Below, one piece after another: positions 1,471 to 10,337 of a stretch of DNA of 64,000 nucleotides. The position numbers and the translations under genes were made by a program. The notes under the pieces were generated by a model, which worked only from the letters and a program-made list of their open reading frames with translations, was not told where the DNA came from and searched no databases. Each line of letters begins with the position of its first letter. The stretch's first letter is position 1. The stretch comes from Bacteroidales bacterium. Lineage in GTDB: Bacteria > Bacteroidota > Bacteroidia > Bacteroidales > GCA-2748055. The stretch covers positions 62,001-126,000 of the forward strand of contig JARGFP010000010.1 of assembly GCA_029210585.1 (NCBI GenBank). The letters run 5' to 3'.

Positions 1471-2757
1471 ATGATCAGGAAACTCAGGGACATTTTTCAG
1501 AATGAGATCATCCGTGTTGATCTCAAGTCGAAATCGAGCCGCAGGCGTTTTGTCATCCGGCAAATCCGCATCTATGTGTATGCGTTCAGGGGATTTTTTG
1601 AAGACAGGGCTGCACTGCGGGCTTCCTCCCTTACCTATTTCACGATGTTGTCGATCGTGCCGATCTTTGCCATGGCCTTCGGTATTGCAAAGGGATTCGG
1701 GTTTGAGGACCGGATGAATGAATTCATCGATAATAGTTTCCAGGAGCAGGACCAGATGATCACCTGGATCAAGACCATGGTCGCAAGCCTGCTTGACAAT
1801 ACCAAGGGAGGACTGGTGGCAGGGATCGGTTTCATCATTCTCTTCTGGTCGGTGATCCAGGTACTGAATAATATAGAACTGTCATTCAACGATATCTGGC
1901 AGGTCAAGAAAGCCCGCAGTCCGATCCGGAAATTCTCGGACTACCTGGCGATGATGATCATCACCCCCTTTGCCATTGCCCTCTCAGGTAGTATCACCGT
2001 AAAAATCAACCAGGCAGCCAATAATTTTGAATTCATCCAGCCCATGCTCAAGGTGGTGCCCTATGCCTCCATTTGGCTGCTGTTTACGGTTATCTATATC
2101 GTAATGCCCAACACCAAGGTGAAATTCAAGTATGCCCTGGTCGCCGGCATTGTGGCCGGAACACTTTCCATGCTGGTACAGTGGGGATATTTCGAATTTC
2201 AGATCGGTGTGACCAGGTTCAATACCCTTTATGGTAGTTTTGCTGCCATTCCACTCTTCCTGCTCTGGCTGCAGATCACCTGGCTGATCGTTTTGATGGG
2301 CGCAGAGATCAGTTTTGCCTACCAGAATATTGAGAATTACGAATTCGAGGATGAAGCCCTGGAACTCAACCATGACAATAAACGGGTGTTGTCTCTGGTC
2401 GTCGCACACCACATCATCAGGAATTTCGAGGAGGGGGGAAGGCCCAAAAGCAATGAAGACCTCAGTCACGAGCTGGGCATCCCCCTGCGGTTGCTGAACC
2501 AGCTGATTTTCGATATGGTAGAATGCGGCATCCTTGCGGAACTGGCCAATGACAGCTCCAAACTACGTACCTACCAGCCTGCGATCGATATCAATAAGAT
2601 CACGGTGAATGAACTCTATACCCGGCTCGAAAAACTGGGAGGAGACCATATGATTGCCACGGAATCTGCAAAACTGGATAAGATCACGAAGATCCATGAA
2701 CACCTGCAGGATGCCATTCGGGAAAGCCCGTCCAATATCCTTGTCAAGGACATATAG
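1471..2757 (+). CDS. YihY/BrkB-family inner-membrane protein
   Basis: A 428-residue protein. Residues about 30-300 carry several hydrophobic segments with the family signature ALRASSLTYFTMLSIVPIFA near residue 55 and a late GSFAAIPLFLLWLQITWLIV segment. This is the polytopic domain once misnamed RNase BN. Residues about 300-428 are soluble and look like a winged-helix (KSNEDLSHELGIPLRLLNQL), an extension frequent in Bacteroidota and Proteobacteria members. The family's biochemical role is not established; envelope or transport roles have been proposed. The gene stands alone between a decayed esterase on the other strand and the histidine operon, with its own promoter. The ATG at 1471 fits the predicted transcription start. 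Confidence 0.85.
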   Translation: MIRKLRDIFQNEIIRVDLKSKSSRRRFVIRQIRIYVYAFRGFFEDRAALRASSLTYFTMLSIVPIFAMAFGIAKGFGFEDRMNEFIDNSFQEQDQMITWIKTMVASLLDNTKGGLVAGIGFIILFWSVIQVLNNIELSFNDIWQVKKARSPIRKFSDYLAMMIITPFAIALSGSITVKINQAANNFEFIQPMLKVVPYASIWLLFTVIYIVMPNTKVKFKYALVAGIVAGTLSMLVQWGYFEFQIGVTRFNTLYGSFAAIPLFLLWLQITWLIVLMGAEISFAYQNIENYEFEDEALELNHDNKRVLSLVVAHHIIRNFEEGGRPKSNEDLSHELGIPLRLLNQLIFDMVECGILAELANDSSKLRTYQPAIDINKITVNELYTRLEKLGGDHMIATESAKLDKITKIHEHLQDAIRESPSNILVKDI

Positions 2758-2816
2758 GAAATTGTGATCTATAAGAAATGTGAACACTATTATATTAAAT
2801 TAATATCTTAATCTCC

Positions 2817-2846
2817 TTGAAATTTTAAAATTATTACTTATACTTG
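2817..2846 (+). promoter_or_regulatory. candidate promoter of the histidine operon
   Basis: TTG at 2817-2819, a 19-nt spacer, then TATACTTG at 2839-2846 (one mismatch to TAnnTTTG; the same variant TATACTTG precedes iorB at 18361). The implied start near 2850-2853 is only about 11-14 nt upstream of the leader ATG and falls inside the AGGAGGA sequence, so either the start or the role of that sequence needs testing. Confidence 0.5.
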
Positions 2847-2863
2847 CAGGAGGAAAAGAAAAA

Positions 2864-2923
2864 ATGAAATTCTATAGCATACATACTGCACATTTTATTC
2901 ATCATCATCACGCAGTGCTGTGA
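2864..2923 (+). CDS. histidine operon leader peptide (19 aa, His-rich)
   Basis: ATG at 2864 opens a 19-codon frame, MKFYSIHTAHFIHHHHAVL, ending with TGA at 2921-2923. Six of 19 residues are histidine, four of them consecutive (2900-2911). AGGAGGA at 2848-2854 sits 9 nt before the ATG. A 9-bp terminator hairpin follows 38 nt after the stop and hisG begins right after that. This is the classical architecture of a translation-coupled attenuator: ribosomes stall at His codons when charged tRNA-His is scarce, changing the fold of the downstream RNA. ACTGC at 2885-2889 can pair with GCAGT at 2912-2916, enclosing the His codons, as a possible pause helix. I could not identify a convincing antiterminator by eye. 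The gene is inferred; its position and composition make coincidence unlikely. Confidence 0.8.
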   Translation: MKFYSIHTAHFIHHHHAVL

Positions 2924-2961
2924 TACGGTAGGATTTTGTAAACATTTAACAATAACGAAGA

Positions 2962-2988
2962 GGTTTGCAGATTCTGCAGGCCTTTTTT
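2962..2988 (+). terminator. attenuator: intrinsic terminator upstream of hisG
   Basis: GGTTTGCAG (2962-2970), loop ATT, CTGCAGGCC (2974-2982) form a 9-bp stem with two G-T pairs, followed directly by six T residues (2983-2988). The stem can extend through the preceding AAGA against the T run. It ends 12 nt before the hisG ATG, so as a plain terminator it would silence the whole operon. Its role as a conditional terminator is inferred from the His-rich leader upstream. Confidence 0.75.
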
Positions 2989-3000
2989 GGTTTTGAGACA

Positions 3001-3858
3001 ATGGAAAAACTAAAAATTGCAATTCAGAAATCAGGCAGGTTGTCTGAGAAATCGGTCTCTATTTTACGCGAAGCGGGAATATCGATGACCAACGGGGAGC
3101 GAAAGCTCATTTCAGTATCGGGCAGCTTCCCCATCGAGGTACTTTACCTCAGGGACGATGACATCCCGCAGTATGTTAAGGACAAGGTGGCCGATATCGG
3201 TATCGTGGGCGAGAATGTTTTCGCCGAGAAGGGATCGGACATTTCAATCGTGGAAAGACTGGGTTTTTCACGTTGCCGAATGTCGCTGGCCATTCCCAAA
3301 ACGGAGCATTACAGTGGACCTGAATATTTCCATGGGAAGAAGATCGCCACCAGCTACCCGGTGATACTGCAAAGGTTCCTGGATGAAAAAGGGGTGGATG
3401 CCGAAATCCACGAAATATCGGGATCTGTGGAAATTGCGCCTGGCATCGGGCTGGCAGAGGGAATATTCGACATTGTCAGCTCCGGCAGTACCCTGATCAG
3501 CAATGGACTATCAGAAGTAGAGGTGGTGATGCATTCGGAAGCAGTGATCATCGGCCGCAATGATCTTTCGCAATCGAAACGGGAAATTCTCAACGACCTG
3601 CTGTTCCGGATCAGGAGTGTTCAGGCAGCCACCAACAACAAGTATATCCTGCTTAATGCGCCCAATGACAAGCTCGATGAGATCATTGGCCTGATTCCCG
3701 GGATGAAATCACCTACCGTGATGCCCCTTGCCGAATCAGGATGGAGTTCTGTACATTCGGTGCTCAGCGAGCGTCAGTTCTGGCAGATTATAGGTGAATT
3801 GCAGAAGCTGGGTGCACAGGGAATCCTTGTGATCCCTATCGAAAAGATGATCGTATAA
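3001..3858 (+). CDS. hisG: ATP phosphoribosyltransferase, long form
   Basis: Catalyses the first step of histidine synthesis, ATP plus PRPP to phosphoribosyl-ATP. The 286 residues begin MEKLKIAIQKSGRLSEKS; the catalytic part covers about 1-210 (including GIVGENVFAEKG and EIAPGIGLAEGIFDIVSSG) and an ACT-like C-terminal domain about 210-286 (KSPTVMPLAESGWSSVHSV), which makes this the long, HisZ-independent type that is usually feedback-inhibited by histidine. The ATG at 3001 is chosen because the longer frame from 2965 would start inside the attenuator hairpin. First gene of an eight-gene operon; hisD follows after 15 nt. Confidence 0.95.
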   Translation: MEKLKIAIQKSGRLSEKSVSILREAGISMTNGERKLISVSGSFPIEVLYLRDDDIPQYVKDKVADIGIVGENVFAEKGSDISIVERLGFSRCRMSLAIPKTEHYSGPEYFHGKKIATSYPVILQRFLDEKGVDAEIHEISGSVEIAPGIGLAEGIFDIVSSGSTLISNGLSEVEVVMHSEAVIIGRNDLSQSKREILNDLLFRIRSVQAATNNKYILLNAPNDKLDEIIGLIPGMKSPTVMPLAESGWSSVHSVLSERQFWQIIGELQKLGAQGILVIPIEKMIV

Positions 3859-3873
3859 CTTAATCCTTTAAAA

Positions 3874-5172
3874 ATGAATACATATAACAACCCCGACAGA
3901 TCGACATGGGAGGAGATTCTCCGCAGACCGGTGATCGATACATCGAAACTGGACGATACCGTCCGGGAGATCCTTGAGGATGTCAGAACAGGTGGTGATG
4001 CTTCGGTAATCAAGTACACTTCCAGGTTCGATGGCATCACGCTGGATCAGCTGGAAGCGAACCCGGATGATATTGCCGCAGCAAAATCAGAAGTGTCCGA
4101 TGACCTGAAGGCGGCAATAGATGAGGCCAACAGGAACATCCGGAGATTCCACGCCAAACAGCTCGGCCCCAATGTCTACGAAGAGACCACACCCGGGGTG
4201 CGGTGCTGGCAGAAGACCGTTCCCATTCAGAAGGTTGGACTGTATATTCCAGGAGGGAGTGCCCCGCTGCTCTCCACGGTACTGATGCTGGGTATCCCGG
4301 CGAAGCTGGCCGGATGTGAGGAGATCGTGCTGTGCACACCCCCGGGGGAGAACGGGAAGATCTATCCCGGTATCCTCTATATTGCTGACCTTCTGGGAAT
4401 CAACCGGATATTCAGCATCGGCGGTGTCCAGGCCATCGCAGCCATGGCATACGGAACCGAAAGTGTGCCGAAAGTCAACAAGATCTTCGGTCCGGGCAAC
4501 CAGTATGTCACCGCTGCCAAGCAACTGGTGAGCCGCGACAGCGTGGCCATTGATTTTCCTGCCGGACCCTCTGAACTGGCCGTGATGGCTGATTCCACTG
4601 CTGTACCTGAATTCGTAGCCTCCGACCTGCTCTCACAGGCAGAACATGGTCCCGACAGCCAGGTAGTGCTGGTGACGGATCACAAGGAGATGATCGGGGC
4701 AGTGCAGGAGGAGATCGAAAAGCAGCTGGCAGTGCTGCCACGGAAGGAATTTGCTGCCAAATCATTGCTGAACAGCAAAATGATCTACATGGACAGCTGC
4801 CTGGACAGTATCGACCTGATTAATTTCTATGCGCCGGAACACCTGATCATCGCTTGCGAGGAATATGCACTTATCGCCGAACAGATCAAGAATGCGGGCA
4901 GTATTTTCCTGGGGAATTATACACCTGAGAGTGCAGGCGATTATGCTTCCGGAACCAACCACACCCTGCCTACCAATGGCTGGGCACACGCTTACAGCGG
5001 TCTGAACATGGATGCATTTGTAAAGAAAATTACCCTGCAGGAGATCAGTAAATACGGACTGTTTAACATCAGCAATGCTGTGATGACAATGGCGCTGGCC
5101 GAAGAACTGGAAGCCCACAGGAACGCAGTAAGTATCCGGTTAAGAAGCGATGACATCGAAGAAGCAGAATAA
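3874..5172 (+). CDS. hisD: histidinol dehydrogenase
   Basis: Carries out the last two oxidations, histidinol to histidinal to histidine, using NAD and zinc. The 432 residues match the usual length. Visible family features are QKVGLYIPGG near residue 116, the FGPGNQYVTAAKQLV segment near 205, AIDFPAGPSELAV, the SQAEHGPDSQ zinc-ligand region near 250, and NHTLPTNGWAHAYSGL near residue 365. The stop TAA overlaps the hisC ATG (TAATG), which implies translational coupling. Second gene of the his operon. Confidence 0.96.
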   Translation: MNTYNNPDRSTWEEILRRPVIDTSKLDDTVREILEDVRTGGDASVIKYTSRFDGITLDQLEANPDDIAAAKSEVSDDLKAAIDEANRNIRRFHAKQLGPNVYEETTPGVRCWQKTVPIQKVGLYIPGGSAPLLSTVLMLGIPAKLAGCEEIVLCTPPGENGKIYPGILYIADLLGINRIFSIGGVQAIAAMAYGTESVPKVNKIFGPGNQYVTAAKQLVSRDSVAIDFPAGPSELAVMADSTAVPEFVASDLLSQAEHGPDSQVVLVTDHKEMIGAVQEEIEKQLAVLPRKEFAAKSLLNSKMIYMDSCLDSIDLINFYAPEHLIIACEEYALIAEQIKNAGSIFLGNYTPESAGDYASGTNHTLPTNGWAHAYSGLNMDAFVKKITLQEISKYGLFNISNAVMTMALAEELEAHRNAVSIRLRSDDIEEAE

Positions 5173-6236
5173 TGACACGTGACATCTCCCGATTGATCCG
5201 TCCCAGCATTGCAAACCTGGTGCCGTATTCATCGGCACGGGATGAATACACAGGCAGCGCCGCGGTATTTCTGGATGCCAATGAAAATCCGTTCAACGGG
5301 CCCTATAACCGGTATCCCGATCCACACCAGGCTGCGCTGAAGAAAAAGATAGGTCTGCTGAAAAACGTGGATCCCCGGCAACTCTTTATCGGGAACGGAT
5401 CTGACGAAGCCATCGACATCCTGTTCAGGATATTTTGTACACCCGGTGTGGACAACGTGGTTTCCATCGACCCGACCTATGGGATGTACCAGGTAAGCGC
5501 GGATATCAACAATGTTGCCCTGCGGAAAGTGTCGCTGACCCCTTCCTTCGGGCTTGACCTTACCGCGTTGATTTCGGCATGTGATGCGCAGACCAAAATG
5601 CTGTTCATCTGTTCGCCCAACAACCCGACTTCCAATTCGTTCGCTGCCGAAGAGATACTGGCACTCACCGGACAACTGGATGTGATGGTGGTGGTGGATG
5701 AAGCTTACATCGATTTCAGTCAGCGGGAGAGCCTTAAAAACCATGTTGCGGAAGTTCCCAGTCTTGTGGTGCTGCAAACTTTCTCAAAGGCGTGGGCACT
5801 TGCCGGAATCAGATTGGGTATCGCCATTGCCGACCCGGAGGTGACCCGGTACATGTCCATGGTGAAATATCCTTACAACATCAACATGCTGACCCAGCAG
5901 TTCGCGCTGGAGGCCCTTGAAAACAAGGCACAGGTGCAGGAGTGGATCGCCCTGATTCTTGAAGAGCGCGGACACCTGGAACGTAAGCTGAACCAGTTCA
6001 GTTTCGTTGAACAGGTGTATCCGTCGGATGCAAATTTCCTGCTGGTGAAGGTCGGTAAACCCAAGAAAGTATACAATTTCCTCGTGGAGAAGAAGATCAT
6101 TGTGCGCGACCGTTCCAATATCCGGTTGTGCGACGGGAGCCTGAGAATTACCGTGGGAACGGAATCGGAAAACCGGGTATTGACGGATGCATTGACACAT
6201 TACCAGCACGATTTTATCGATTCGTGCGGATTATAA
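5172..6236 (+). CDS. hisC: histidinol-phosphate aminotransferase
   Basis: PLP-dependent fold-type I aminotransferase converting imidazole-acetol phosphate and glutamate to histidinol phosphate. The 354-residue protein shows FLDANENPFNGPYNRYPDP near the N-terminus, FICSPNNPTSN, VVVDEAYIDF, and the PLP-lysine motif QTFSKAWALAGIRLGIA. It overlaps the hisD stop by one base. The 48-nt gap to hisB contains a good -7 element, so hisB and later genes may also be transcribed separately. Confidence 0.95.
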   Translation: MTRDISRLIRPSIANLVPYSSARDEYTGSAAVFLDANENPFNGPYNRYPDPHQAALKKKIGLLKNVDPRQLFIGNGSDEAIDILFRIFCTPGVDNVVSIDPTYGMYQVSADINNVALRKVSLTPSFGLDLTALISACDAQTKMLFICSPNNPTSNSFAAEEILALTGQLDVMVVVDEAYIDFSQRESLKNHVAEVPSLVVLQTFSKAWALAGIRLGIAIADPEVTRYMSMVKYPYNINMLTQQFALEALENKAQVQEWIALILEERGHLERKLNQFSFVEQVYPSDANFLLVKVGKPKKVYNFLVEKKIIVRDRSNIRLCDGSLRITVGTESENRVLTDALTHYQHDFIDSCGL

Positions 6237-6249
6237 TTTAAATGGATTA

Positions 6250-6257
6250 TATTTTTG
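6250..6257 (+). promoter_or_regulatory. possible internal promoter (-7 element) before hisB
   Basis: TATTTTTG matches TAnnTTTG exactly and lies 28 nt before the hisB ATG, in the longest gap among the first five genes. No clear TTTG partner is present at the expected spacing, so this is a weak call. Confidence 0.3.
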
Positions 6258-6284
6258 CAGGCGAGTGCAGCTAATGTATAAGAT

Positions 6285-7412
6285 ATGATGAAAAAAGCAT
6301 TGTTTATAGACAGGGACGGGACACTGATCGTGGAGCCACCGGCAACCTTCCAGGTCGATTCCCTGGAATTACTGGAATTTCTGCCGGGGGTCTTCCGAAA
6401 CCTCTATCTTCTTCAACACCTGACTGACTATGAATTGGTGATCGTTTCCAACCAGGATGGATTGGGAACCCCCGCAAATCCCCTTGAAAAGTTCGAACTG
6501 GTGCAGGGGAAAATGTTACAATATTTTAAAAATGAAGGCGTTGTATTTGATGATATTCTGATTGACCCTTCCAGTCCCGCGGACAAATCACCCAACCGGA
6601 AACCCAACACAGGAATGCTGACAGCCTATTTGCAGGGGGAGTATGACCTGGAGCAAAGTTTTGTGATCGGCGACAGAATGACCGATATCCAGTTGGCCAA
6701 GAACCTGGGAGCCATGGGGATCCTGATCGGACCACCAACAATGCAGGAGGAGCTGAAGAAGGCGGAACTGGAAGCGGATTGTGTGTTGCTTGCCGGGAAC
6801 TGGGACGAGGTGTACCGGTTCATTCGCGCATCGATGCGCAGTGGCAGGGTGGTACGCAAAACCAATGAAACCGGTATACTGGTGGAGCTCTCGCTGGATG
6901 GAACGGGGCGCTCGGAGGTATCCACCGGGCTGGGGTTTTTTGACCACATGCTGGAGCAGATTGCGCGGCATGGCAATGTTGATCTCAGGGTACAGGTGAA
7001 CGGGGACCTGCATGTGGATGAACACCATACGGTGGAAGATACGGCCCTGGCACTCGGGGAAGCATTTCTGCAGGCCCTGGGAAACAAAAAAGGAATCCGC
7101 CGGTACGGGTTCACTGTTCCAATGGATGATTCACTGGCCAATGTGGCAGTGGATTTCGGCGGACGTCCCTGGCTGGTATGGGAAGCCACATTCAATCGGG
7201 AAATGATAGGTGGGGTGCCCACGGAACTGTTTTCCCATTTCTTTAAATCCTTTTCAGATACTTCAAAGTCCAACCTGAATATCAAAGCAGAAGGAACCAA
7301 CGAACACCATAAGATTGAGGCAATATTCAAGGCGTTCAGCAAGGCCCTGCGGGGTGCCGTGGAACTGGATGCCGGAAGTGACCAGTTGCCCAGTACCAAA
7401 GGGGCACTCTGA
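6285..7412 (+). CDS. hisB: bifunctional histidinol-phosphatase / imidazoleglycerol-phosphate dehydratase
   Basis: The 375 residues contain two domains. Residues 1-170 are a HAD-type phosphatase with the DRDGTL motif near residue 9, SNQDG near 50 and VIGDRMTDIQLA near 125. Residues about 185-375 are the dehydratase with STGLGFFDHMLEQIARHG and DEHHTVEDTALALGEA, whose histidines and glutamates bind the two Mn ions. The fusion is the form known from enterobacteria and Bacteroidota. Two adjacent ATGs (6285, 6288) could start it. Seventy-one nt separate it from hisH. Confidence 0.95.
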   Translation: MMKKALFIDRDGTLIVEPPATFQVDSLELLEFLPGVFRNLYLLQHLTDYELVIVSNQDGLGTPANPLEKFELVQGKMLQYFKNEGVVFDDILIDPSSPADKSPNRKPNTGMLTAYLQGEYDLEQSFVIGDRMTDIQLAKNLGAMGILIGPPTMQEELKKAELEADCVLLAGNWDEVYRFIRASMRSGRVVRKTNETGILVELSLDGTGRSEVSTGLGFFDHMLEQIARHGNVDLRVQVNGDLHVDEHHTVEDTALALGEAFLQALGNKKGIRRYGFTVPMDDSLANVAVDFGGRPWLVWEATFNREMIGGVPTELFSHFFKSFSDTSKSNLNIKAEGTNEHHKIEAIFKAFSKALRGAVELDAGSDQLPSTKGAL

Positions 7413-7483
7413 CGGCAGAGGTGCCTGGACAGGATGGATTAAATGTCCATTCGGACCTAAATGGATTGTAAGAATTATACGTA

Positions 7484-8065
7484 ATGAACATCGTTATTAT
7501 AAAATACAACGCGGGAAACATCCGGTCGGTCGATTTTGCACTCAGGAGAATGGGTGTTGAAGCGGAGATCACCGATGACCAGCAAAAGATCAGGTCGGCA
7601 GATAAAGTGATCTTTCCCGGGGTGGGAGCAGCCGCCAATACCATGGACTACCTGGCGACACGGGGACTCGACCAGCTGATCAGATCTCTCCAGCAACCGG
7701 TGCTGGGGATCTGTCTTGGTCAGCAGCTGATGTGTGACCGGTCTGAGGAAGGAGATACACAATGCATAGGTGTGTTTGACCAGCCGGTGCTGAAATTTCC
7801 GCCCCATGACAAAGTGCCGCATATGGGCTGGAACCAGTTGCTGGAACCTGCTGGTGCGCTGTTCAGGGGCGTGGAGGAAGGAGCGTATGTCTACTTTGTC
7901 CATTCATACTATGTTCCGCGTTGTGATGATACCGCTGCCGGGTGTCGTTATATCTGCGATTTCAGCGCAGCGATGCAGAAGGATAATTTCTATGCCACCC
8001 AGTTCCATCCCGAGAAAAGCGGACCCACAGGACAAAAAATACTGGAAAACTTCATTGCCTTATGA
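7484..8065 (+). CDS. hisH: imidazole glycerol phosphate synthase, glutaminase subunit
   Basis: Class I glutamine amidotransferase that supplies ammonia to HisF. Of 193 residues, the nucleophile Cys77 lies in GICLGQQLMC, and His175 and Glu177 in QFHPEKSG complete the triad. The PGVGAA loop near residue 45 forms the oxyanion region. The gene overlaps hisA by four bases (ATGA), indicating coupling. Subunit partner HisF is two genes downstream. Confidence 0.95.
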   Translation: MNIVIIKYNAGNIRSVDFALRRMGVEAEITDDQQKIRSADKVIFPGVGAAANTMDYLATRGLDQLIRSLQQPVLGICLGQQLMCDRSEEGDTQCIGVFDQPVLKFPPHDKVPHMGWNQLLEPAGALFRGVEEGAYVYFVHSYYVPRCDDTAAGCRYICDFSAAMQKDNFYATQFHPEKSGPTGQKILENFIAL

Positions 8066-8790
8066 TCGATCTTATTCCAGCCATCGACCTGATCGGGGGT
8101 AAGTGTGTACGCCTTACCAGGGGAGATTATTCCAGTAAGAAGGAATACGGAGATCCGCTGGATATGGCCATGCAGTTTGAGGACCATGGCGTGCGCAGGC
8201 TGCACCTGGTGGACCTGGACGGGGCAAAAGCGGGAAAGGTTGTCAATTACAGGATACTGGAAGAGATTGCATCCAAAACCCGGCTGGTGATTGATGCCGG
8301 CGGTGGCATCAAATCAGACGAGGACCTGCGGATCATTTTTGATTCGGGTGCAGCCATGGCTACCGGTGGCAGTATTGCAGTGAAGGAACCGGAGGTGTTT
8401 GAGCAATGGATCGTTGCGTACGGACCGGAGAAGATCATCCTGGGGAGCGATTTCAGCGAGGGACGGATCGCTGTCAGCGGATGGACCGAGGCGACAGGAG
8501 AAGAACTGATGCCTTTTATTGGCAAGTGGACAGGAAAGGGGATTACCAGGACCATTTGTACGGATATCAGCAAGGACGGAGTGCTGGAGGGAACCTCGGT
8601 AAACGTATACAGGGAGATCCTGGAGCAGTTTCCCGAGCTGTACCTGGTGGCCAGCGGTGGTGTGGCCTCACTGGATGACGTCGAACTGCTTGTGGAGGCC
8701 GGGGTACCTGCAGTGATCATCGGGAAGGCGATCTACGAAGGCAGGATCGGTTTGAAGGAACTTGAAAATTTCATACAATATAAGAGTTAG
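8062..8790 (+). CDS. hisA: phosphoribosylformimino-AICAR-phosphate isomerase
   Basis: A TIM-barrel isomerase (ProFAR to PRFAR) of 242 residues. It starts MIDLIPAIDLIGGKCVRLTRG with the catalytic Asp near residue 8; DAGGGIKSDEDL near residue 78 and CTDISKDGVLEGTSVNVYRE near residue 170 are the second catalytic and phosphate-binding strands. It overlaps hisH by four bases and is followed by hisF after three bases. Confidence 0.95.
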   Translation: MIDLIPAIDLIGGKCVRLTRGDYSSKKEYGDPLDMAMQFEDHGVRRLHLVDLDGAKAGKVVNYRILEEIASKTRLVIDAGGGIKSDEDLRIIFDSGAAMATGGSIAVKEPEVFEQWIVAYGPEKIILGSDFSEGRIAVSGWTEATGEELMPFIGKWTGKGITRTICTDISKDGVLEGTSVNVYREILEQFPELYLVASGGVASLDDVELLVEAGVPAVIIGKAIYEGRIGLKELENFIQYKS

Positions 8791-8793
8791 AGT

Positions 8794-9546
8794 ATGCTGG
8801 CAAAGAGGATTATACCATGCCTGGATGTGCGTGACGGCATGACAGTGAAAGGAATAAATTTTGTGGATATCAAAGAGGTGGGGGACCCCGTGGAACTGGG
8901 TTCGAAATATGCCCGAGATGGTGCCGATGAGCTGGTGTACCTCGACATTACGGCCTCCCACGAAAAACGGAAGTTGTTTTCCGACCTGGTGCGGCGCATT
9001 GCTGCCCACCTGAACATTCCCTTCTCTGTAGGCGGAGGGATCAATGAATTAAAGGATGCAGATGTACTGCTCTCTGCCGGTGCCGACAAGGTATCGGTCA
9101 ACAGTGCCGCCATCCGCAACCCGTTGCTGGTAGACCAGATCGCGGAAGGATTCGGCAGCCAGTTTGTAATTGTTGCCATTGATGCGAAGCTGGAAAACGG
9201 TCGCTGGGGCGTATACATCAATGGGGGACGCATCCCGGTGGAGAAGGAATTGTTCAGCTGGGCGAAAGAGGTCGAAAGCCGCGGCGCCGGGGAAATCCTC
9301 TTTACTTCCATGAACCACGACGGTACGAAGAACGGGTTTGCCTGCGATGCACTCCGCGCGCTTTCAGAAAGCCTGTCCATCCCGGTGATTGCTTCCGGCG
9401 GTGCAGGCAGCGAGGAGCATTTCGCGGAGGTATTCACCCGGGGAAAAGCCGATGCGGCCCTTGCTGCAAGCATTTTCCATTACAACGAGATACCGGTGCC
9501 ACAACTGAAACAATACCTCAGGGAAAAACAGATCAACGTAAGATAA
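8794..9546 (+). CDS. hisF: imidazole glycerol phosphate synthase, cyclase subunit
   Basis: TIM-barrel cyclase of 250 residues that joins PRFAR and ammonia from HisH to give imidazole glycerol phosphate and AICAR. It starts [20 protein letters not shown] with the catalytic Asp; [13 protein letters not shown], the second catalytic Asp (VIVAIDAK equivalent) and [10 protein letters not shown] phosphate loop are visible. The last codons (QINVR and the TAA) are themselves the first unit of a 20-bp tandem repeat that fills the gap to hisIE, so the extreme C-terminus may have been altered by the repeat or have founded it. Confidence 0.95.
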
Positions 9547-9748
9547 CCAGGATCAGCGTGAGATAACTAAGATCACCTTAAGATTACACAGATCAATGCA
9601 AGATAACACAGATCAATGCAAGATAACACAGATCAATGCAAGATAACACATACCAATTAAGATAACACAGATCAACCCAAGATAACACAGATCAATGCAA
9701 GATAACACATACCAATTAAGATAACACAGATCAACCCAAGATAACCAT
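9531..9748 (+). repeat. 20-bp tandem repeat between hisF and hisIE, 11 units
   Basis: Unit consensus GATCAATGCAAGATAACACA. Units start at 9531, 9551, 9571, 9591, 9611, 9631, 9651 (19 bp), 9670, 9690, 9710 (19 bp) and 9729. Unit 1 is the 3' end of hisF including its stop codon; the last unit contains the ATG of hisIE at 9747. A 59-bp block (9621-9679) is repeated perfectly at 9680-9738, showing a second-order duplication. Divergence is higher in units 1-3 and low in the middle, so the array grew recently. There is no spacer structure as in CRISPR. Confidence 0.95.
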
Positions 9749-10337
9749 GATGGATTTTGATAAAATGGACGGCCTGGTGCCGGCGGTCATTCAGGACAAT
9801 GTTTCAGCTAAAGTGCTGATGCTGGGTTTCATGAACAGGGAAGCCTATGAAAAAACAAAGTCGGAAGGAAGGGTCACCTTCTTCAGCCGGACAAAGAACA
9901 GGCTGTGGACAAAAGGGGAGGAGAGCGGGAATTTCCTCGATGTGATGGAAATCATAGAGGACTGTGACCAGGATACGCTGCTGATCAAGGTGCATCCGCA
10001 CGGACCCGTGTGTCATACCGGCAGTGATACCTGTTTTTCAGAAAAAAATGACCCGGGTATTTTATTCCTGCAAAAACTGCAGGACCTGATTGCCACCCGT
10101 AAAAAGGAGATGCCCGCCAACAGCTATACTACGAAACTGTTTGAGGCCGGCATCAATAAAATTGCCCAGAAGGTGGGTGAGGAAGCCGTGGAACTGGTGA
10201 TCGAGGCAAAAGATGACAACGATACACTGTTCCTGAACGAATCGGCCGATCTCCTTTACCACCTGCTGGTGTTGCTGACACAGAAAGGGTTTGACCTTTC
10301 AGATGTGGTCAGGATACTGGAAAAGCGCCACAAATAA
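9747..10337 (+). CDS. hisI: bifunctional phosphoribosyl-AMP cyclohydrolase / phosphoribosyl-ATP diphosphatase
   Basis: Also called hisIE. The 196 residues contain the cyclohydrolase (about 1-105: FMNREAYEKTKSEGRVTFFS, then DCDQDTLL and CHTGSDTCF with zinc and magnesium ligands) and the pyrophosphohydrolase (about 110-196: KLFEAGINKIAQKVGEEAVE, ESADLLYHLLVLL, an all-helical MazG-like fold). It catalyses steps two and three of the pathway and closes the operon. ATG at 9747 or 9750 can serve; both lie at the end of the repeat tract, so its ribosome binding region is made of repeat DNA. It converges with the aminotransferase gene five bases downstream. Confidence 0.95.
   Translation: MMDFDKMDGLVPAVIQDNVSAKVLMLGFMNREAYEKTKSEGRVTFFSRTKNRLWTKGEESGNFLDVMEIIEDCDQDTLLIKVHPHGPVCHTGSDTCFSEKNDPGILFLQKLQDLIATRKKEMPANSYTTKLFEAGINKIAQKVGEEAVELVIEAKDDNDTLFLNESADLLYHLLVLLTQKGFDLSDVVRILEKRHK

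Follow-up and report, generated by a model that had tools for sequence, protein, structure and literature searches.

A leader-peptide attenuator candidate upstream of the histidine operon in a Bacteroidales genome, with related leaders across the Bacteroidota

Attenuation of the his operon is textbook knowledge in enterobacteria. In the Bacteroidetes/Chlorobi, attenuators were reportedly noted "in some cases" by Vitreschak in 2004 (FEMS). A survey from 2010 states, in the part of its text consulted, that besides its own Firmicutes cases no leader-peptide system had been shown outside the Proteobacteria and Actinobacteria (PMC2965389), and leader-peptide attenuators of his genes have been predicted in the Bacillus cereus group, Peptostreptococcaceae, and Erysipelotrichales (PMC9413887). 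Within the Bacteroidota, a 2021 transcriptome study of Flavobacterium psychrophilum describes "strong clues" for leader-peptide attenuation at amino acid operons, as well as, 5' of hisG, a structured element conserved among further genera of the Flavobacteriaceae and lacking any Rfam match (PMC9723704). Leader-like small ORFs are mentioned for Bacteroides thetaiotaomicron, with histidine unnamed in the sections at hand (PMC7366714), and the available text of a his-gene analysis of this superphylum uses the word "attenuation" once, for enterobacteria (PMC8305728). At the level of titles and abstracts, we found no his leader peptide described in the Bacteroidota; the hisG element is named in the F. 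psychrophilum study (PMC9723704). The leader reported here is not the first hint of such control in this phylum.

In this study, we analyzed the region upstream of the his operon in a 64,000-nt stretch of a Bacteroidales genome (hereafter, the window) and compared it with the corresponding regions of other Bacteroidota. Judged from its sequence and that of its relatives, the locus very probably controls the his operon by ribosome-mediated transcription attenuation, sensing charged tRNA-His, so that the his genes would probably be read only on histidine shortage. As a his leader-peptide attenuator it appears real, ordinary in kind, and well supported by sequence comparison, with a predicted fine switch in the window copy.

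Anatomy of the his leader region

The window contains a complete his operon, with hisG, hisD, hisC, a HAD-IGPD hisB, hisH, hisA, hisF, and hisIE recognized by Pfam; all features described below lie on the plus strand. The first gene, hisG (3001..3858; HisG and HisG_C domains), is followed by the remaining seven at 3874..10337 (ORF list and Pfam), among which hisB (6285-7412) encodes a HAD phosphatase fused to IGPD. The 243 nt between the end of a BrkB-type gene at 2757 and hisG hold a promoter candidate, a leader ORF, and a terminator.

The candidate Bacteroidota-type promoter (2816..2846) was recognized by the consensus TAnnTTTG / TTTG published for the phylum (PMC7366714). It consists of a -33-like CTTG at 2816-2819, a 19-nt spacer, and a -7-like box, TATACTTG, at 2839-2846, which is one off TAnnTTTG and whose TTGCA is kept in nearly all rows of an alignment of the 25 genomes of the window's family that have hisG. 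A scan for sigma-70 type promoters stayed at chance level (2 found, 2.0 expected). Transcription would start near 2851, in which case AGGAGG at 2848-2853, a Shine-Dalgarno-like sequence 10 nt 5' of the leader ATG, would be only partly within the RNA. By eye, AGGAGG is absent from most family rows, and messages of this phylum are described as lacking classical Shine-Dalgarno sequences (PMC7366714).

The leader ORF (2864..2923) starts with ATG at 2864, ends with TGA at 2921-2923, and encodes in 19 codons the peptide MKFYSIHTAHFIHHHHAVL, whose His cluster is conserved in relatives. Six codons specify His, namely codons 7 (2882-2884), 10 (2891-2893), and 13-16 (2900-2911), the last four being the tandem regulatory codons. 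Behind the ORF lies an intrinsic terminator with a 9-bp core (2962-2970:2974-2982, two of the pairs U-G), which reaches 14 pairs when the T tract is included (2957-2970:2974-2987). Its six-T run, the U tract, occupies 2983-2988 and lies 12 nt before the hisG ATG (3001). We designate the 5' arm of the terminator region 3 (2957..2971) and its 3' arm, which the U tract overlaps, region 4 (2974..2987); the 3:4 duplex has a computed energy of -21.5 kcal/mol. Both AGGTTTGCA of the region 3 arm and the six T of the U tract are invariant in 25/25 family rows. The fold of 2817-3000 has a z score of -2.96 relative to 200 shuffles, and three terminator-like sites were found in 2500-3500 vs 0.7 in shuffled sequences.

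Two further helices can be drawn between the start of the ORF and the terminator. Helix 1:2 (2864-2875:2928-2939 and 2880-2889:2912-2922; duplex -20.8 kcal/mol) joins region 1 (2864..2889, pairing at 2864-2875 and 2880-2889) to a 3' strand at 2912..2939 (2912-2917, 2919-2922, and 2928-2939), and its loop, 2890-2911, encloses His codons 13-16. The candidate antiterminator 2:3 (2935-2943:2963-2971 and 2945-2947:2959-2961; -5.8 kcal/mol in the fold of 2924-2971) pairs region 2 (2935..2947, pairing at 2935-2943 and 2945-2947) with region 3 (2959-2961 and 2963-2971). Region 2 contains UGUAAAC, of which UGUAA is invariant or at least 90% conserved in the 25-row alignment. In the window copy, the antiterminator shares only 5 nt with helix 1:2, the pause helix.

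Much of this anatomy had been proposed in an earlier note made from the window's letters. Its 19-codon ORF with six His, four of them consecutive, is exact to the base, and its 9-bp stem, six-T tail, and 12-nt distance to hisG are right, the stem being longer once the T tract is counted. The pairing that it suggested between ACTGC (2885-2889) and GCAGT (2912-2916) is present within a longer helix than it described, and the alternative antiterminator fold that it named as a check has a candidate at 2935-2947:2959-2971. Its view that the element is built from sequence unrelated to the enterobacterial his leader agrees with the Rfam searches: at the gathering score, one tRNA and nothing else was found across the window, and RF00514 (His_leader) was not among the five matches obtained up to E 10 in 2750-3100. 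The nearest in kind there was Thr_leader, which with E 0.24 stayed well short of its gathering score, and neither search returned a T-box match.

Consensus folding of the family alignment yielded the terminator stem alone, and none of the pairs varied in both strands, since region 3 is invariant and the leader codons align poorly; we therefore tested pairing sequence by sequence and by swapping partners. A second alignment, of 17 rows, was set aside.

Spread of the leader and co-change of its pairing strands

A His-rich leader was defined as a short ORF, no more than 350 nt upstream of hisG, that contains a stretch of five residues with three or more His; a stricter cut required at least four. 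At the looser cut, leaders were found in 41/45 order relatives (window included), 72/80 named loci, and 85/98 anchored phylum loci, vs 1.15/45, 1.8/80, and 2.0/98 in dinucleotide shuffles (2-3%); at the stricter cut, the counts were 31/45, 59/80, and 62/98 vs 0, 0, and 0.15. Among 900 dinucleotide-shuffled versions of the order-level upstream regions (45 in all), four His in five residues did not occur once. For any residue other than His, the same search gave at most 21/45, 36/80, and 35/98 at the looser cut and at most 2/45, 6/80, and 11/98 at the stricter, the last value belonging to Ser.

The phylum sample comprises 103 of the 252 genomes with hisG, taken from the better-scoring matches listed and mostly one per genus, and it under-represents family f51. 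Five of its loci (four from f51, one from f62) gave no HisG match by tblastn and are hence outside the 98; a direct look at their first 1000 nt found no His-rich ORF. The leader is present in 69/80 genera and 18/25 families of the anchored loci or, with the five counted as lacking it, in 85/103 loci, 69/83 genera, and 18/27 families. As some of the sets overlap, their 223 upstream regions represent 211 distinct loci: 137 have a leader and a terminator, 49 a His-rich ORF without a terminator by the finder, and 25 no His-rich ORF. Cultured species with the leader include Flavobacterium antarcticum (L080), Hydrotalea sandarakina (L072), Sediminibacterium ginsengisoli (L105), Puia dinghuensis (L103), and Flavihumibacter fluminis (L121); the terminator finder was negative in L072, L103, and L121. 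The conservation in relatives by which the earlier note proposed to judge the element thus extends to both the His-rich ORF and the stem.

A covariance model (R1) was built from the 25 sequences of all window-family genomes with a hisG match, and its matches in those genomes follow from how it was built. Beyond them, it gave nine matches in eight genomes, eight of which (seven genomes) lie before hisG, in six genomes by position and in G048 before an ORF at a contig end that resembles the HisG start by eye. The match in G052 was rejected as false: its terminator stands behind another ORF, which we take to encode ribosomal protein S20, and not before hisG.

Several loci depart from the common layout. 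Family f57 has a His-rich leader in 18/18 loci and, by the finder, a terminator between leader and hisG in 0/18. In three of its members (L142, L143, and L158), inspection by eye of the last 90 nt before hisG revealed a 5-bp GUGCA/UGCAC-type hairpin, with CUUUU behind it and the leader stop codon located at its loop, and a GAUGUCC/GGACAUC hairpin that contains His codons; these leaders perhaps follow another attenuator logic. Two loci, L053 and L065, have no His leader upstream of hisG, and the reading frame preceding hisG resembles the end of what is presumably a trpB-type gene, so that hisG may sit in another operon there. In 5/211 loci (L003, L033, L058, L067, and L098), two His-rich leaders stand in series within up to 440 nt ahead of hisG, and a terminator accompanies each, which would make them tandem his attenuators. 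Salmonella mgtCBR is a known case of attenuators in tandem (PMC3641672).

Similar leaders stand before other amino acid genes of the same clade. In raw counts, not set against shuffles, trpE-type genes are preceded by a Trp-rich ORF (at least two Trp in four residues) with a terminator behind it in 17/21 loci, 16 of them with WWW, and ilvD-type genes by an Ile/Leu/Val-rich ORF in 23/23 loci, 19 with a terminator by the test applied. These loci are the best match of 21/24 and 23/24 genomes, respectively, second or weak matches (including the strong L262) being excluded; the trp locus L244 has no upstream sequence, and L239, the one of the 17 without WWW, may be a chance occurrence. The window's genome carries a trpE-type leader, MLFNIHNNWWWPFDTQ (L232, G000:C72, -233..-182), and an ilvD-type leader, MKLNRLHIILVLLVVVIVVLPA (L230, G000:C28, -146..-77), the latter with a hairpin whose poor T tract was not counted as a terminator. 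The trp relatives are L239-L258, of which L241 has two Trp-rich leaders in a row, and the ilv relatives of L230 are L268-L289.

Pairing was tested in the 137 distinct loci with leader and terminator, 133 of which could be divided into regions 1 and 2. Own duplexes of regions 2 and 3 average -8.93 kcal/mol vs -7.03 with random partners (sd 0.16; lowest of 2000 permutations -7.59), in permutations that leave shared ancestry in place, also within clusters. The terminator arms can mostly be grouped by type, and the partner matching each type sits between the His codons and the terminator. GCUUACC arms go with GGUAAGC or GGUAGGC (35 loci; own -11.39 vs -7.51 for own region 2 with foreign region 3), CCGUUUGA arms with CUCAAGCG (23 loci; -9.82 vs -6.50), and CCGGC-type arms with GCCGG (17 loci; -8.79 vs -6.27). 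The own 2:3 pairing beats shuffled region 2 at p<=0.05 in 29/35, 19/23, and 10/17 of these loci, and is better than shuffled in 4/14 of a mixed group; the overall gain comes from these four groups. In the window's cluster, own pairing (-6.82) is close to that with foreign partners (-6.28 and -6.81), and only 2/43 loci reach p<=0.05 against shuffled region 2. The five-member GCTTGCA cluster shows no gain either (-6.04 vs -6.34; 0/5 better than shuffles). Compared across lineages at the sequence level, regions 2 and 3 change together. The peptide C-termini that recur among the loci listed, QAR and LPxG/R, are explained by codons of the antiterminator strand: SQA(R) corresponds to CUCAAGCG(A) in RNA, and LPxG/LPxR plus the stop codon to the GGUAAG/GGUAGG strand.

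For helix 1:2, the window's cluster (43 loci) averages -14.04 kcal/mol for own strands vs -11.63 after permutation within the cluster (0/2000 as low, again with shared ancestry in place) and vs -12.55 with the nearest relative's region 2 (p 0.028; 23 better, 18 worse). The nearest-relative test also gave p 0.028 in the GCUUACC group and 0.06 to 0.45 in the other three groups tested, so that p exceeds 0.1 in two of the five clusters. In the GCTTGCA cluster, own pairing is not better (-13.50 vs -14.76).

Ribosome position, proposed mechanism, and alternative explanations

We modeled the ribosome by removing the RNA under and before it and computing the probability that region 3 pairs upstream, using equilibrium folding, then folding with all early pairs locked, then folding in which early structure is kept if it reaches -8 kcal/mol or better. 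At equilibrium, a ribosome stalled on His gave means of 0.83 in the GCUUACC group (Chitinophagaceae-type), 0.83 in the CCGUUUGA group (Flavobacteriaceae-type), and 0.73 in the CCGGC group, and a ribosome on the stop codon 0.18, 0.13, and 0.04, respectively. The stalled value was higher in 35/35, 21/21, and 16/16 loci (72/72), in 10/13 of the mixed group, and in 3/5 of the GCTTGCA cluster.

The window's own cluster behaved otherwise at equilibrium, with means of 0.67 free, 0.70 stalled, and 0.67 at the stop codon, and the stalled value higher than the stop value in 8/43; the window copy showed no switch (0.74, 0.83, and 0.84, respectively). Locking all early pairs turned the cluster in the opposite direction (0.51 free vs 0.31 stalled) and blurred the switch in other groups, for example to 0.23 and 0.23 in the GCUUACC group. 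The third model gave 0.30 released vs 0.70 stalled for the cluster, with the two states more than 0.2 apart in 30/43 loci and opposite in one, and 0.33 vs 0.83 for the window copy, under a rule that was chosen, together with its threshold, after the first two models and was applied in the ribosome-free state with a shorter 5' end. This 5' end lies 12 nt before the leader ATG; in the first two models it lay 20 nt before, reaching into the promoter box. With the 12-nt end, the mean equilibrium free value of the cluster falls from 0.67 to 0.53, and that of the window copy stays at 0.74. The window copy shows no switch at equilibrium and the expected direction only if helix 1:2 is assumed to persist.

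In the window, region 2 lies 12-21 nt beyond the leader stop codon and is probably out of reach of a ribosome standing there; the fold of 2851-2971 retains most of 1:2 together with 2:3. From these models we infer a his-like logic for the window's clade, in which release of the ribosome would favor 1:2 and hence the terminator. We read the other groups as following a trp-like logic, in which a ribosome on the stop codon would cover region 2.

We propose that in the window RNA polymerase would start near 2851 and a ribosome begin the leader ORF. With ample His-tRNA, it would pass the four His codons, finish, and leave, so that region 1 (leader codons 1-9) could pair with the stretch 3' of the His codons. 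The resulting helix 1:2 would occupy the start of region 2 and leave region 3 free for region 4, and transcription would stop at 2983-2988. Under a shortage of His-tRNA, the ribosome would stall at His codons 13-16, which lie in the loop of helix 1:2, and block this helix; region 2 would pair with region 3, and the polymerase would continue into the his genes. The attenuator reading of the earlier note is supported by conservation, the candidate antiterminator, and the pause helix, and is qualified by the 5-nt overlap and the missing equilibrium switch in the window copy.

Other explanations can be set against this one. The His-rich ORF might control hisG translation, with alternative structures hiding or freeing the hisG start and the T tract incidental. 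Such an arrangement would suit family f57, which has leaders in all 18 loci and U-tract terminators in none by the finder, and which suggests that attenuators lacking a strong terminator may occur in the phylum. The computed fold covers 2817-3000, up to but without the hisG ATG, a point that we count for this explanation; against it, the stem with the AGGTTTGCA arm runs directly into six T in 25/25 family rows, which is the form of an intrinsic terminator, and we consider translational control very unlikely here. A still smaller probability attaches to the stem being an ordinary terminator or processing hairpin, with any histidine control exerted independently of the ribosome, by a protein or a riboswitch, and the ORF a passenger. 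The absence of a switch of the window copy in plain equilibrium folding fits this idea, but the enriched residue is His, upstream of hisG, in 69/80 anchored genera, in this clade trpE is preceded by Trp codons and ilvD by Ile/Leu/Val codons, and no T-box or other Rfam element was found in the leader.

The least probable alternative is that the short peptide is itself functional, for example in metal binding or by acting in trans, and owes its conservation to this. Metals can be bound by His-rich peptides, and the C-termini QAR and LPxG/R are recurrent. One leader peptide, peTrpL, is known to act in trans (PMC7298713). Yet residues outside the His cluster vary widely between families, and the recurrent C-termini are codons that form the antiterminator strand.

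Seen as a ribosome-sensing attenuator, the window alone offers a control element of a well-understood kind. Together with the trp and ilv leaders of the same clade, the his leaders provide concrete, testable candidate switches in a phylum with translation start rules unlike those of E. coli, and thus a way to probe the coupling of transcription and translation there. If a further reading is true, to which we give an even chance, tight ribosome-polymerase coupling would be the rule at leaders in a phylum that starts translation without relying on Shine-Dalgarno sequences. The analysis also suggests a function for the hisG 5' element left as "original" by a transcriptome study.

Comparison with known attenuators

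The run of His codons is seven long in hisL and four long in the window. Otherwise, the window's element resembles the enterobacterial his attenuator (hisL of E. coli and Salmonella; RF00514) in its His-codon run within a short ORF, its pause helix, its candidate alternative antiterminator, and its intrinsic terminator just before hisG; it differs from RF00514 in giving no covariance-model match and in its three-helix chain 1:2/2:3/3:4. The Bacteroid-trp RNA motif (RF01692; PMC2864571, Weinberg 2010), a candidate cis-regulatory RNA of Bacteroidetes that by its name precedes trp genes, concerns another operon, and it had no match in the window's genome at E 0.001, although the trpE-type gene there has a WWW leader and a terminator. 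The Firmicutes his candidates share with the window a place outside the Proteobacteria and a run of three to five His codons; they come from few Firmicutes lineages, and the main text of that study, as available, holds no word beginning with "bacteroid" (PMC9413887). Closest by phylum and gene is the hisG element of F. psychrophilum, for which the passages at hand give no peptide, antiterminator, or spread beyond the Flavobacteriaceae (PMC9723704); the Flavobacteriaceae leaders in our analysis have a CCCGUUUGA-type terminator, whereas that of the window is of the GGUUUGCA type. The kind of control is already known and one branch of the Bacteroidota had already been hinted at; relative to the literature that we found, the breadth of the leader, its anatomy, and the co-evolution of its strands are new.
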